NCBI GenBank assembly: GCA_016790425.1
Contig: JAEUPF010000032.1
Coordinates: 1-46,245, forward strand
DNA length: 46,245 bases
DNA from: Rubrivivax sp.
Lineage (GTDB): Bacteria > Pseudomonadota > Gammaproteobacteria > Burkholderiales > Burkholderiaceae_C
Reading direction: 5' to 3'
Below are positions 5,741 to 45,287 of the stretch, one piece after another. Under the pieces are notes generated by a model. That model was not told the DNA's origin, did not search any database, and saw nothing but the letters and a program-made list of their open reading frames with translations. Position numbers and translations under genes: made by a program. Position 1 is the first letter of the stretch. Each line of letters starts with the position of its first letter.

Positions 5741-8004
5741 CGCTCGCCCGCCGGCCCGCCGCGTTCGCGTACGGCGCCGGTGCCTTCGTGCCCCGCGCGG
5801 TCCGGGCCGTCCGGCGCCTTCGGACCCGCGCCGTGCGGCGCCGGCGCGGCTGCATCGTCGTCGGCGGCCGTGGTCGCTGCCTCGGCATCGTCGATGGCCA
5901 GGTGCAGCGGCCCCGCGGCCATGCCGTCGTCGTCGTCGCCGGCGTCCGCCTCTTCGGCCTCGATGGCCGCTGCCGCGCCCGCGGCGGGCGTCTCGAGCGC
6001 AGCGACGAGCACGGCATGCAGGTCCAGCGTCAGGAGGTCCATGCCGGCGATGCGGGCGCGCACGCGCGCGCCGCGCGGCAGCGCATCGGTGCCGCGCAGC
6101 TCGAAGACCAGCGGCAGCGTCTCGGCGCGCACGAGGCCGGGCTTGATGACCGTCGCTTCGATCTCGCTCGCTGCGTTCTGCTGCAGCCAGCGCAGTGTCC
6201 AGAAGCGCTCGATGCCGTTCTGGAAGTCGTGGTACGCGGCGTGCGCCGCCTCGTAGGCCGAGATGAGCGCGAACAACGCCGCGTCGCGCGGCTTGAACGG
6301 CGCCACCAGCGCGGCCATGCGGCCCTGGCGCGCCACCGCGATGATCTGCCACTGGTTGACGAGGTCGACGCAGCGGCGCAGCGGCGAGGTGGCCCACGTG
6401 TAGTGCGGCACGCCCATGCCGGCATGCGGCAAGGGCTTGCTGCCCATGCGCACCTTGACGCCCGGCGCCAGGCTGGCCTGGCTGCGGTAGATGCCCGGCA
6501 CGCCGTGCTCGGCGAGCCAACCGCCCCAGTGGCTGTTGGCGAGGATCATCGCCTCGGCGACGATGAGGTCCAGCGGCGCACCGCGGCGGCGCGGCGTGAT
6601 GACGACGCGCTCGTTGCCGGTCGGCTCGCCCGCGTGTTCCGCCGCGGATCGATCGATCGCCTCAGCGCTCGGCGTGCCGGCGGCCGCGGCTGCCGCATCG
6701 GCTGGCGCCGCGCCGTCGGGCGGCGCCAGGCGGAAAGCGTAGTCGGGCCGGTTGAACGTCTCGGGCTTGCCGCGTACCAGCTCGCGCGCGGCCTTCAGGG
6801 CCTGCGCGAGGCGCCAGCCGAAAGCCAGCTCGGCCGCGAAGGGGAAGCCGGCCGCGCCGCTGGCCAGCGTGCCTGCCGCGACCGCCGCGAGCGCCTCCCC
6901 GGTGACGAGGGCATCGAGCTTGTCGTGGCGCAGGTTGGCGGCGATGGCCACGCGCTCCAGGCGCGTCTCGAAGGCCCGCACTTCGAGCGTCGCTTCGTCG
7001 ACCGTCGCGTACAGGCTCACTGCCGGGCATTCGCGGCCTTCGACGAGCGTGAACGCCTGCACCACGTCGGCCGGCAGCATCGTGATCTTCCACCCTGGCA
7101 TGTACACGGTGGAAAGGCGTTCGCGCGCCAGCTTGTCCAGCGCCGAATCGGGCGCGATCGCCAGCCCCGGCGCGGCGATGTGGATGCCGCAGGTGACGGT
7201 GCCGGTGCCCAGGCCGCGCACCGACAGCGCGTCGTCGATCTCGGTGGTGGCCGAGTCGTCGATCGAGAACGCCTGCACGCCCTCGGCCAGCGGCAAGGGC
7301 TCGGCGATGCGCGGCGCCTCCAGCTTCGGCGGGAAGGCGGTGCCGCGCGGGAACGCCTCGAACAGGAAGCGGCGCCAGTGGAACTGGTACGGGCTCTCGA
7401 TGGCGCCGGCGGCTTTCAGCAGTTCCAGCGGCGCACGGTGCGTGCGCTTGGCCGCTTCGACGACGGCGCGGTACTCGCTGGCGTTCTTGTCCGGCTTGAA
7501 GAGGATGCGGTAGAGCTGCTCGCGCACCGGCTCCGGGCAGCGGCCGGCGGCGATCTCCGTGGCCCAGGCTTCGATCTGCTCGGCCTGGCGGCGCTTGCGC
7601 TCGATGGCCAGCAGCGCCGCCTTCACCGTCTCCTCGGGCGCCTTGCGGAACTGGCCGCGGCCCAGGCGGCGGAAGTAATGCGGCGCCTCGAACAGGCGGA
7701 ACAGCGCCGCGGCCTGCTTCTCGGGGCCCGCGCCGGGCTCGAAGTACTCGCGCGCCAGTTCGGCGAAACCGAAGTCGACGTCGGGCGCGAATTCCCACGC
7801 CAGGTCGAGGTCGATCTCGCCGGCCAGTGCCTGCGCGCGCGCGATCAGCTCCGCCGGCGCGGGCTTGTCGAAGCGCAGCATCACGTTGGCGGCCTTGACC
7901 TTGACGCGCTTGCCCGACTCCAGCTCGATCTGCAACGAGGTTTCGGCGTCGGACAGCACGCGCCCGGCATGGAAGCGGCCGGCGTCGTCGAAGAGGGCGT
8001 ACAT
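5737..8004 (-). CDS. rnb: RNase II/R family exoribonuclease
   Basis: This enzyme would degrade RNA from the 3' end to mononucleotides. It has 755 residues. The RNB catalytic motif AFSIDDSATTEIDDAL is at residues 245-260. It keeps the metal-binding aspartates except that the second one (Asp207 of E. coli RNase II) is Glu here, which appears to be normal for this subfamily. The region SPLRRCVDLVNQWQI (about residue 540) is the conserved arginine-containing active-site segment. The ~70-residue C-terminal tail, rich in Asp, Glu and Ala, is low complexity. It lacks a clear basic C-terminal S1 end as in RNase R, so it is closer to a short RNase II-type protein. It is the first gene of the overlapping rnb-tonB-aroE-mtgA string. 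Confidence 0.92.
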   Translation of the reverse strand: MYALFDDAGRFHAGRVLSDAETSLQIELESGKRVKVKAANVMLRFDKPAPAELIARAQALAGEIDLDLAWEFAPDVDFGFAELAREYFEPGAGPEKQAAALFRLFEAPHYFRRLGRGQFRKAPEETVKAALLAIERKRRQAEQIEAWATEIAAGRCPEPVREQLYRILFKPDKNASEYRAVVEAAKRTHRAPLELLKAAGAIESPYQFHWRRFLFEAFPRGTAFPPKLEAPRIAEPLPLAEGVQAFSIDDSATTEIDDALSVRGLGTGTVTCGIHIAAPGLAIAPDSALDKLARERLSTVYMPGWKITMLPADVVQAFTLVEGRECPAVSLYATVDEATLEVRAFETRLERVAIAANLRHDKLDALVTGEALAAVAAGTLASGAAGFPFAAELAFGWRLAQALKAARELVRGKPETFNRPDYAFRLAPPDGAAPADAAAAAAGTPSAEAIDRSAAEHAGEPTGNERVVITPRRRGAPLDLIVAEAMILANSHWGGWLAEHGVPGIYRSQASLAPGVKVRMGSKPLPHAGMGVPHYTWATSPLRRCVDLVNQWQIIAVARQGRMAALVAPFKPRDAALFALISAYEAAHAAYHDFQNGIERFWTLRWLQQNAASEIEATVIKPGLVRAETLPLVFELRGTDALPRGARVRARIAGMDLLTLDLHAVLVAALETPAAGAAAAIEAEEADAGDDDDGMAAGPLHLAIDDAEAATTAADDDAAAPAPHGAGPKAPDGPDRAGHEGTGAVRERGGPAGER

Positions 8005-8122
8005 CTAGGGGGCGATTGTCGCCGGGGCAGGGGTCGAAGCCGGGCGCCGGGGCCGGGCGGCCGCGGCGGGCGTCACTGTGCCGGGCGCCGCGTCCGGCCC
8101 TTGCCGCGGGCGGCCGTCGTGA

Positions 8123-8560
8123 TCAGGCCAGCACCCGCAGCAAGCGCTTGCGCTCGCCCTCGGTGGCCAGCAGGGCACCGATACCGTTGTCGAAGGTGAC
8201 GAGCGCGGCCTCGTTGCGGGCGGCGGCGGTCAGCAGGTAGGCATCGGTGATCTGCCGGTGCCCGAGCAGACCGCCGGTGCAGCAGCCCAGCACCTGTTCC
8301 AGCCCGAAGTCCAGCGGCAGCAACCGGTGCGCGGCGTGGGCGACGTTGCGCAACAGCAGTTCGGCCGCTTGCGTCACGGCGATCGCGCGCCCCGCGAAAG
8401 CCGGCTGCGAGACGATGCGCACGAACGCGGCCTGCGTGAAGGCCGTCGTGGCCCAGCCCTCGCGTGCGTGGCGCTCGAACCAGCGGTGCACGCTGTCGTG
8501 ATGCTCGTGCGCGGGCCAGCCGAGCGCGATCAGCGCATTGGCGTCGAGCAGCCAGCGCAT
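8123..8560 (-). CDS. vapC: PIN-domain toxin of a type II toxin-antitoxin pair (VapC family)
   Basis: VapC toxins are Mg-dependent ribonucleases that cleave tRNA or rRNA when released from their antitoxin. The 145-residue protein has the PIN-domain acidic residues Asp6 (LLDANAL), Asp106 (QITDAYLL) and Asp124 (VTFDNG). At the position of the second acidic residue I see TTAFTQAAFVR, with Gln instead of Glu, as in the subfamily that carries T-Q-x-x-F-x-R. The start follows the antitoxin gene by 14 bases, so the two are co-transcribed. The pair stands between rnb and the esterase gene, which are often direct neighbours elsewhere, so it is probably an insertion. Confidence 0.9.
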   Translation of the reverse strand: MRWLLDANALIALGWPAHEHHDSVHRWFERHAREGWATTAFTQAAFVRIVSQPAFAGRAIAVTQAAELLLRNVAHAAHRLLPLDFGLEQVLGCCTGGLLGHRQITDAYLLTAAARNEAALVTFDNGIGALLATEGERKRLLRVLA

Positions 8561-42709: not shown

Positions 42710-43294
42710 ATGGCAGCCGGTTCTCGCATCGACCTGACGAACCAGTTCCTGATCGCCATGCCGGGCATGGTCGACGACACCTTCAAGGGCGCCGTTGTCT
42801 ACCTGTGCGAGCACACCGAGAAGGGCGCGCTCGGCCTGGTGATCAACAAGCCCATCGACATCAAGCTGAAGAACCTGTTCGAGAAGGTCGATCTCGGCAC
42901 GCCGCCGGCGCCGCTGGCCGAGCAGCCGGTGTACTTCGGCGGCCCGGTGCAGACCGAACGCGGCTTCGTGCTGCACGAGCGCCAGGGCGAGGCCGGCGCC
43001 TCGTACAACTCGACGCTGGCGATCGCCGACAGCGGCCTGGAGATGACGACCAGCAAGGACGTGCTGGAGGCGATGTCCAGCGGTGGCGGCCCGAAGAAGG
43101 TGCTCATCACGCTGGGCTACAGCGGCTGGGACGCCGGCCAGCTCGAAGACGAGATCGGCCGCAACGGCTGGCTCACGGTCGACGCCGATCCGGCGATCAT
43201 CTTCGACACGCCCACCGACAAGCGCTACGACCGCGCCTTGTCGCTGCTGGGCATCGACCCGCGCATGCTCTCCCAGGAGGCCGGGCACGCATGA
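42710..43294 (+). CDS. yqgE: YqgE/AlgH family protein
   Basis: This conserved cytoplasmic protein of the UPF0301 (DUF179) family has 194 residues. It carries the family segments [20 protein letters not shown] (about 11-30), [15 protein letters not shown] (about 38-52) and [16 protein letters not shown] (about 78-93), and ends [21 protein letters not shown]. Its biochemical role is unsettled; the name AlgH comes from a link with alginate control in Pseudomonas. It is routinely encoded just before ruvX. The ATG of ruvX overlaps its stop codon (ATGA), so translation is coupled. Confidence 0.94.
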
Positions 43295-44325
43295 ACGCGG
43301 CGGCGCCGCGCAACGCGCCGGCCCGCCCCGTTGCCTTTCTGGCGTTCGATTTCGGCACCCGGCGCGTCGGCGTCGCCGCCGGCAACTCGCTGCTGAGGAG
43401 CGCGCAGCCGCTGGCCACCGTGAGCGTGGCGGGCGAAGCGCGCTTCGCGGCGATCGCCCGGCTCATCGGCCAGTGGCAGCCCGATGCGCTCGTCGTCGGC
43501 GTGCCGTTCCATCCGGACGGCGCGCCGCACGACAATACGCGCCGCGCGCGTGCCTTCGGCCGCCAGTTGCACGGCCGCTTCAAGCTGCCGGTGCACGAGG
43601 TGGACGAGCGCTACAGCACCACCGAAGCGCGCGCGCGGGGCGTGGGCGATGCCGGCGTCGATGCGGCCTCGGCGGCGGTCATCCTCGAGCAGTTCCTGCG
43701 CAGCCTGCCCGACGACGATCCGCCCCTGCCGAACGGAACGACGAGAACGACGAGAACGACGAGAACGACGAGAACGACGAGAACGATGCCGATGCTCGAG
43801 CTTGACGCCGAAGCGCTCTACGCCGACCTGCGCGAGGCGGTGCGCCGCCTGCTGCGCCCCGAACGGGCGGCCGGCACCAGCCTCGTGGGCATCTGGTCCG
43901 GCGGGGCGTGGCTGGCCGAGCGGCTGCAGCGCGACCTGGCGCTGCCCGGTGCGGCCGGCGTCATCTCCAGCACGCTGCACCGCGACGACTTCGGCTCGCG
44001 CGGGCTGGCCGCGCACAGCGACGCGACGAACCTGCCCTTCGACATCGAGGGCCGGCACATCGTCCTCGTCGACGACGTGCTCTACACCGGCCGCACGGTG
44101 CGTGCCGTGATCAACGAGCTGTACGACTTCGGCCGCCCGGCCAGCGTGGCGCTGGCGGTGCTGGTGGACCGTGGCGGCCGCGAGTTGCCCATCGAGCCGG
44201 CCTGCGCCGCGGCGCGCATCGTGCTGCCGGCGGCGCAGAAGCTGACGCTGGCGCGCGGCGAGGGCGGCGGCTTCTCGTTCTCGATCAGGCCCCGCGACGA
44301 CGCCAACGACGGGGAGCGGCGCTGA
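43291..44325 (+). CDS. ruvX: RuvX (YqgF) nuclease fused in frame to PyrR
   Basis: One uninterrupted frame of 344 residues encodes two proteins that are normally separate. Residues 1-147 are RuvX/YqgF, an RNase H-fold nuclease for Holliday junctions and 16S rRNA 5' end maturation, with Asp20 in [15 protein letters not shown], the motif [13 protein letters not shown] and the final [14 protein letters not shown]. Residues ~148-165 are a Thr-Thr-Arg repeat encoded by a 9-bp tandem array. From Met166 onward lies a complete PyrR, a PRPP-binding uracil phosphoribosyltransferase/pyr regulator, with the PRPP loop [13 protein letters not shown] (about 257-269). No stop codon separates the halves. Either the fusion is real or PyrR is also made from Met166 or Met168. 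The frame overlaps yqgE by 4 bases and pyrB by 1. Confidence 0.85.
43736..43786 (+). repeat. 9-bp tandem repeat joining ruvX and pyrR
   Basis: Five perfect copies of GAACGACGA (43736-43780) plus a partial sixth copy up to 43786. Read in the RuvX-PyrR frame it gives Thr-Thr-Arg repeats. The unit is a multiple of three, so gain or loss of copies keeps the two genes in one frame. Confidence 0.93.
43786..44325 (+). CDS. pyrR: PyrR part of the fusion, possible separate translation from an internal ATG
   Basis: PyrR homologues normally start close to the sequence [17 protein letters not shown], which is found here right after ATG codons at 43786 and 43792. A separate 179-residue PyrR could therefore be translated from inside the fused frame. 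The upstream repeat offers only a weak Shine-Dalgarno match (GAG 4 bases before the ATG), so strong independent initiation seems unlikely. PyrR senses UMP/UTP and PRPP, controls pyrimidine gene expression, and converts uracil to UMP. Its position before pyrB and a pyrC-like gene fits that role. No PyrR-binding attenuator leader is visible within the cluster. Confidence 0.4.
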
Positions 44326-45287
44326 TGCTCGCGCGCCGCAACCCGCAGCTCAACGCCAACGGCGAGCTGATCCACCTGTTGTCGATCGAGGGGCTGCCGC
44401 AGGCGATCCTGGTGCAGATCCTCGACACCGCGAGCACCTTCCTCTCCGTCAACGAGCGCGAGGTGAAGAAGGTGCCGCTGCTGCGGGGCAAGAGCGTCTT
44501 CAACCTGTTCTTCGAGAACAGCACGCGCACGCGCACGACGTTCGAGATCGCCGCCAAGCGGCTGTCGGCCGACGTCATCAACCTCGACATCGCGCGCTCG
44601 AGCACCGCCAAGGGCGAGAGCCTGCTCGACACCATCGCCAACCTCTCGGCGATGCACGCCGACATGTTCATCGTGCGCCACGCCGAAAGCGGCGCGCCGT
44701 ACCTGATCGCGCAGCACGTGGCGCCGCACGTGCACGTCGTCAACGCCGGCGATGGCCGCCACGCCCATCCGACGCAGGCGCTGCTGGACATGTACACGAT
44801 CCGCCACTTCAAGCGCGACTTCAGGAATCTCGTCGTCGCGGTGGTCGGCGACATCGTGCACTCGCGCGTCGCGCGCTCGGACATCCACGCGCTGACGACG
44901 CTGGGCGTGCCCGAGATCCGCGCCGTCGGCCCGAAGACGCTGGTGCCGGGCGATCTGGCGGCGATGGGCGTGCGCGTTTGCCACTCGATGGCCGAGGGCA
45001 TCCGCGGCGCCGACGTGATCATCATGCTCAGGCTGCAGAACGAGCGCATGAACGGCGCCCTGCTGCCGAGCGCCGCCGAGTTCTTCATGACCTACGGCCT
45101 GACGCCGGAGAAGCTGGCGCTGGCGAACAAGGACGCGATCGTGATGCACCCGGGGCCGATCAACCGCGGCGTCGAGATCGATTCGCAGGTCGCCGACGGC
45201 CGCGCCAGCGTCATCCTGCCGCAGGTGACCTTCGGCATCGCGGTGCGCATGGCGGTGATGAGCCTGATCGCGGGGAACCAGGCATGA
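44325..45287 (+). CDS. pyrB: Aspartate transcarbamoylase catalytic subunit
   Basis: PyrB joins carbamoyl phosphate and aspartate in the first committed step of pyrimidine synthesis. The 320-residue protein has the carbamoyl-phosphate site [13 protein letters not shown] (about 64-76), the loop [23 protein letters not shown] (about 148-158) and the aspartate-domain segment [10 protein letters not shown]. Its N-terminus is slightly extended, as in the class of ATCases that assemble as dodecamers with a PyrC-like partner. The ATG overlaps the fusion gene's stop (TGATG), and its own stop overlaps the next gene as ATGA. Confidence 0.97.

Follow-up and report, generated by a model that had tools for sequence, protein, structure and literature searches.

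What the window (the whole stretch of 46,245 nucleotides that was analysed) holds is an ordinary event: ruvX and pyrR, overlapping housekeeping genes, have become one frame through a frame change at a 9-bp tandem repeat in a single assembly, that of a MAG related to Rubrivivax. The explanation that we favour, with some reserve, is a recent, strain-level and near-neutral fusion, in which an indel with a net effect of −1 (mod 3) at the first unit of the repeat array would have put RuvX into the pyrR frame.

Domains and repeat array of the joined frame

The joined frame, its parts and its neighbours lie on the plus strand as follows.

42710 to 43294, plus strand: yqgE/algH-family gene, the upstream neighbour (NCBIfam NF001267, 302 bits, cut-off 284)
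43291 to 44325, plus strand: RuvX-PyrR joined frame of 344 codons, from the ORF list
43336 to 43701, plus strand: RuvX core domain, residues 16-137 (Pfam PF03652, 114.6 bits, cut-off 29.2)
43736 to 43786, plus strand: GAACGACGA tandem array found by TRF, read as (TTR)n in the fused frame and as (NDE)n in the ancestral ruvX tail frame
43792 to 44325, plus strand: PyrR coding part, 177 codons and a stop (NCBIfam NF003545, 209.4 bits, cut-off 140)
44325 to 45287, plus strand: pyrB, aspartate carbamoyltransferase, the downstream neighbour (NF002032, 395.8 bits), whose start overlaps the pyrR stop in the sequence as TGATG

The joined frame runs from ATG to TGA without an internal stop, and the calculated mass of its product is 36.9 kDa, which agrees with the size of about 37 kDa given in the preliminary description. 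Both halves scored above the cut-offs of their family models. The RuvX half also exceeded the cut-off of NCBIfam TIGR00250 (83.8 bits versus 43.25), and in the PyrR half the NF003545 match covers residues 170-333 of the fused chain, while PF00156 matches residues 177-301 (54 bits, cut-off 26.3). Using phmmer, we found that the RuvX half matched E. coli YqgF (1nmn and 1nu0, E from 4.3e-24 for 1nmn to 4.9e-24), and that the PyrR half matched PyrR structures (1ufr and 1a3c, E from 1.4e-25 for 1ufr to 3.9e-23). When aligned to 1nmn, the RuvX half was found to contain the acidic motifs DFGT, DER, and VDAASA, which we take to be catalytic, the activity being predicted from sequence; the PyrR half, aligned to 1ufr, keeps the 12-residue family motif, presumably the PRPP loop. 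The earlier claims that both proteins are encoded in one uninterrupted frame and that both halves keep their motifs were thus borne out. Unlike the product predicted for the window, the solved YqgF and PyrR chains are separate proteins, and none of the 37 distinct PDB sequences listed (E up to 0.001) had its best stretch over both halves.

According to TRF, GAACGACGA is repeated 5.67 times without a mismatch (100% matches); its score of 102 is the highest of those listed for the window. The preliminary description was right about a perfect 9-bp array at the junction, and its count of five copies is replaced by the TRF value. Because the unit contains no T, the array holds no stop in any forward frame, and because it measures 9 bp, the gain or loss of whole units keeps the frame, so that copy-number change alters only the length of the linker, as had been proposed. 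Phase variation by repeat slippage calls for a unit that is not a multiple of three, and the T-free unit of this array is of another kind. A genome search with the exact two-unit pattern gave four overlapping matches in the MAG, all at this array. The pattern was absent from all 114 distinct relatives, and among 231 loci it was found only in L001 and L179-L182, which all represent the same place in the MAG.

Near-perfect arrays (at least 93% matches and at least 3 copies) numbered 17 per 378 kb of the MAG, 14 per 560 kb of the related MAG G012, and 0 per 98 kb of the relatives G007 and G009 together; they are not unusual in this MAG. A second perfect 9-bp array, GTGCCCTGG with 4.8 copies, is located in the same MAG at 6456-6498 of L174 (G000:C150), where it encodes (GTQ)n inside a gene; this stretch is missing from the aligned gene of G012. 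Arrays of 9-bp units recur in the MAG.

Junctions in relatives and the retained ruvX stop

We read the junctions of 150 loci containing both halves, corresponding to 115 distinct sequences including the window; L089, L124, and L210 (3 of 153 loci) were set aside with one half missing. As had been stated at the outset, ruvX and pyrR are normally separate neighbouring genes: they are so in 114 of 114 distinct relatives, and only the window is fused. Three layouts coexist among these relatives. The commonest, with pyrR in phase +2 with respect to ruvX, is that of 63 of the 114: the genes overlap by 4 bases in 54 of them and by 1 base in 6, and are apart in 3. Phase +1 is found in 41, of which 31 have overlaps of 8-20 bases and 10 have the genes apart, and in the other 10 pyrR shares the phase of ruvX with a stop between the two. 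A few relatives (L072, L096, L130, L064, and L032) have the two genes 82-328 bases apart. The spacer of L072 (1888-1969) is GC-rich and inverted-repeat-like (CCCCCTCGGGGG...GGCGCCGAAGGCGCC) and resembles an intergenic repeat element that has inserted there.

The five closest distinct relatives, whose PyrR and RuvX are 81-87% and 71-81% identical to those of the window, are all in phase +1, with ruvX ending in a TGA within pyrR. In the records, the nearest is a Burkholderiales MAG, and the other four are Rubrivivax sp. MAGs. The frame relation of the window differs from that of all five, and since they are in phase +1 and the window is in the fused phase, a net change of −1 (mod 3) is needed. 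The RuvX of G012 matches window positions 43330-43734 in the RuvX frame with 79% identity; this similarity stops at 43734, at the edge of the array, which places the frame change at that point. The positions that bear on the change are as follows.

43731 to 43745, plus strand: likely point of the frame change, an incomplete first unit, GAACG, ahead of full units, from the alignment of five relatives and the junction table
43786 to 43794, plus strand: candidate pyrR start codons at 43786 and 43792, the latter aligned with the start in relatives
43803 to 43805, plus strand: ancestral ruvX stop TGA within the pyrR Leu-Asp codons CTT GAC, positioned as in relatives

From this comparison, the net −1 (mod 3) change would likely fit at the broken first unit, CCGAACG before GAACGACGA.

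The TGA at 43803-43805 is still present downstream of the array, out of the fused frame. Its query coordinate was calculated as 171.7, and ruvX stops at exactly this coordinate in 28 of the 41 distinct relatives in phase +1, including the closest relatives of the MAG. Read in the ancestral frame, the array encodes (NDE)n and the tail ends in NDADARA before the stop, an acidic tail of the same kind as those of ruvX in relatives (PDDAAA, DDDAAA, and DDADAGT, each followed by the stop).

In the 28 phase +1 loci with this stop, the TGA that ends ruvX falls across the Leu-Asp codons of pyrR, which forces the rare leucine codon CTT. Across 18 gene segments that were taken from conserved matches of the window, 11 of 930 leucines (1.2%) are encoded by CTT. 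At this position it was found in the window, in 29 of 41 phase +1 relatives, in 3 of 63 phase +2 relatives, and in 1 of 10 same-phase relatives. Given this distribution, the CTT of the window is a relic of the old ruvX stop. That this rare codon survives suggests that the frame change either is recent or is absent from the cells altogether; for a change carried by the cells, the codon points to a recent fusion.

Where the RuvX core ends, the pyrR frame lacks stops in 39 of the 41 phase +1 relatives and in 57 of the 63 in phase +2; in 11 of the former and 41 of the latter it is open for at least 60 bases of the core. Because this frame is already free of stops there in these GC-rich genomes, one frame change in the ruvX tail joins the two genes.

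The calculated Shine-Dalgarno duplex energy was strong for ruvX (−10.3 kcal/mol) and weak for pyrR (−3.0 kcal/mol for either candidate start). In the 41 phase +1 relatives, the pyrR value had a median of −2.7, with 14 of 41 at −4 or lower. Overlapping gene pairs on the same strand are translated by termination-reinitiation, as described in PMC10666635, which deals mostly with 4- and 1-base overlaps. The relatives resemble these coupled pairs in that ruvX and pyrR overlap (31 of 41 in phase +1, 60 of 63 in phase +2) and in that pyrR often has a weak Shine-Dalgarno sequence, so PyrR would be made there largely through coupling to ruvX translation. Unlike those pairs, the upstream frame of the window no longer ends near the pyrR start, and coupling would yield to a joined chain.

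To search for fusions elsewhere, we used 41 genomes of relatives, 399 of the family, 81 of the genus, 399 of the order, and 369 of the class, 1,226 distinct genomes in all, of which 43 gave no match and many were without one of the two genes; a true fusion is expected near the top of its match list. Among the matches listed, a fused ruvX-pyrR frame was found in 1 of 1,226 genomes, this MAG, and thus in a single species. A single reading frame spanning both domains, which the preliminary description had proposed to look for in the same family, was found in none of the other genomes among the matches listed for the 399 of the family. Elsewhere, the listed matches that span both halves hold a stop, except for five (G021, G475, G819, G1067, and G1212), which we rejected as fusions: in each, ruvX uses a different frame and ends at a TGA of its own. 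Among the matches listed for the order and the class, some PyrR frames stay open for about 310-345 codons. A motif-only look at 20 fetched regions recognised RuvX in 11 and missed PyrR in three. With tblastn of each half, both halves were found in 22 of 22 checked loci (the 20 regions, G475, and G021 as L016), each ruvX ending at its own stop and none fused. The long open stretches upstream of PyrR in other genomes are out-of-frame readings. No report of a RuvX-PyrR fusion was found in the open-access PMC library, which is the literature covered.

Frame change in the cells or in the assembly

In the fusion that we favour, the ancestral ruvX would have ended at a TGA 14-20 bases inside the pyrR start, in another frame, giving two separate proteins. 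In the lineage of the MAG, the acidic ruvX tail would have gained the 9-bp array, either before or after the indel, and at the first array unit one base (net, mod 3) would have been lost, which would have shifted RuvX into the pyrR frame. With no stop in that frame, ribosomes coming from the ruvX start would read through into a 37-kDa RuvX-(TTR)n-PyrR protein. PyrR, probably once coupled to ruvX translation, would with the loss of this coupling be delivered mainly as the C-terminal half of the same chain, and some of it may still be initiated internally from its own weak site. As the tail of RuvX is free to vary from one relative to another, the frame change was probably tolerated. The fusion is most likely recent, strain-level and near-neutral.

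A competing reading, less probable and still a serious one, holds that the frame changed in the assembly only: the cells would carry an ordinary overlapping ruvX/pyrR pair in which RuvX has an (NDE)n tail, and the base lost at the array would be a sequencing or assembly error. The following observations speak for it; those on the single assembly, the repeat and published frame breaks also weigh against the favoured fusion. The fusion comes from one assembly, a MAG of 4.31 Mb in 178 contigs with 82% completeness and 1.3% contamination, and its one-base change lies precisely at a tandem repeat, the kind of site most prone to assembly errors. The old TGA and the rare CTT codon are intact, and no relative among the matches listed has the fusion. 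According to the GeneTack paper (PMC3711429), unclustered frame breaks validated by BLASTp are expected to be sequencing errors and not genuine indels; this category is related to the window case without being identical to it.

Against an error speaks, first, the repeat itself: its collapse or expansion by an assembler would remove or add whole 9-bp units and leave the frame as it is. The 20 sampled contigs of the MAG measure 2-55 kb and at least one other extends beyond 89 kb; these sizes look like those of a short-read assembly, and single-base gaps are rare in short-read assembly. In addition, we surveyed about 378 kb of the MAG with coding-like reference ORFs from the relatives G012, G007, and G009 (192 of 1,038 kept), and among the 65 conserved matches (74,964 nt) no other broken gene was recognised in the MAG.

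The survey raised two frame-change, one short-frame, and six long-frame flags. The first frame-change flag is a break in G012 and not in the MAG: a permease-like gene is continuous in the window from 13305, and its frame changes after about 48 codons in G012 (L183, G012:C5:1330001-1350000, minus strand, reverse-complement offset about 7935-8380), an apparent assembly frameshift. Such breaks thus occur in such assemblies, which counts against the favoured fusion. The second concerns a photolyase start, where the reference ORF is over-long upstream as judged from the ORF list, and the short-frame flag is an upstream non-coding stretch. Among the long-frame flags, one is ruvX itself (331 codons versus 137), another belongs to a gene whose additional C-terminal domain makes sense, and four were left aside (L164 at 16115; the window at 8004, 28638, and 36741); ruvX is the only gene recognised as running into its neighbour. 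The gene at 5478-3810 of L174 (G000:C150, minus strand) continues for about 130 codons beyond the point where its G012 counterpart stops, and this extension resembles an OmpA-like C-terminal domain by eye (SGYVDSTGSAAANAELAKQRAFAVRDAL). For a 20-kb query from G012 (L150), no syntenic stretch was found in the MAG. With both sides considered, we lean towards an indel that is present in the cells and not only in the assembly.

A stronger version of the favoured fusion is that the cells make a 37-kDa RuvX-PyrR protein with a length-variable (TTR)n linker, the first of this architecture, which would fix the two proteins in a 1:1 ratio and would be a fusion at birth, caught before the relic stop decays; we consider this whole proposal unlikely.

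Much less probable still is a selected two-domain protein that ties rRNA and Holliday-junction processing to pyrimidine sensing and is kept by purifying selection. The retained motifs of both halves would suit it, as would the pairwise dN/dS against three relatives (0.19-0.30 for RuvX and 0.17-0.23 for PyrR), but these ratios span the whole divergence from the relatives and are therefore silent on the time since fusion; the purifying selection on both halves reflects their long past and not the fusion. The occurrence in one genome of those searched and the youth indicated by the CTT codon also speak against it. The least credible reading, that repeat expansion replaced the ruvX stop, as the preliminary description had suggested and as a stop-free array at the junction might imply, was rejected, since the aligned TGA is retained downstream of the array and 9-bp steps cannot shift the frame, which yet differs from that of the five closest relatives.

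A probable fusion of overlapping neighbours

The window resembles the fs-genes catalogued in the GeneTack paper (PMC3711429) in that an indel changes the frame relation of adjacent coding regions and in that it is a singleton; unlike in those fs-genes, its indel joins two complete genes and breaks none. Since the fusion was found in only one of the 1,226 genomes, among the matches listed, nothing in the sequences points to a conserved function for it, and no new function is indicated. It is a one-off event that tells more about the ease of fusing overlapping genes than about a new link between RuvX and PyrR, and it calls for caution when Rosetta-stone inference relies on a fusion from a single MAG. 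A single indel suffices because, in GC-rich genomes such as these, the frame of the downstream gene is free of stops right through the end of the upstream gene. If real, the joined frame would be a snapshot of overlapping operon neighbours turning into one protein, in which a rare codon preserves the fossil of a lost stop.
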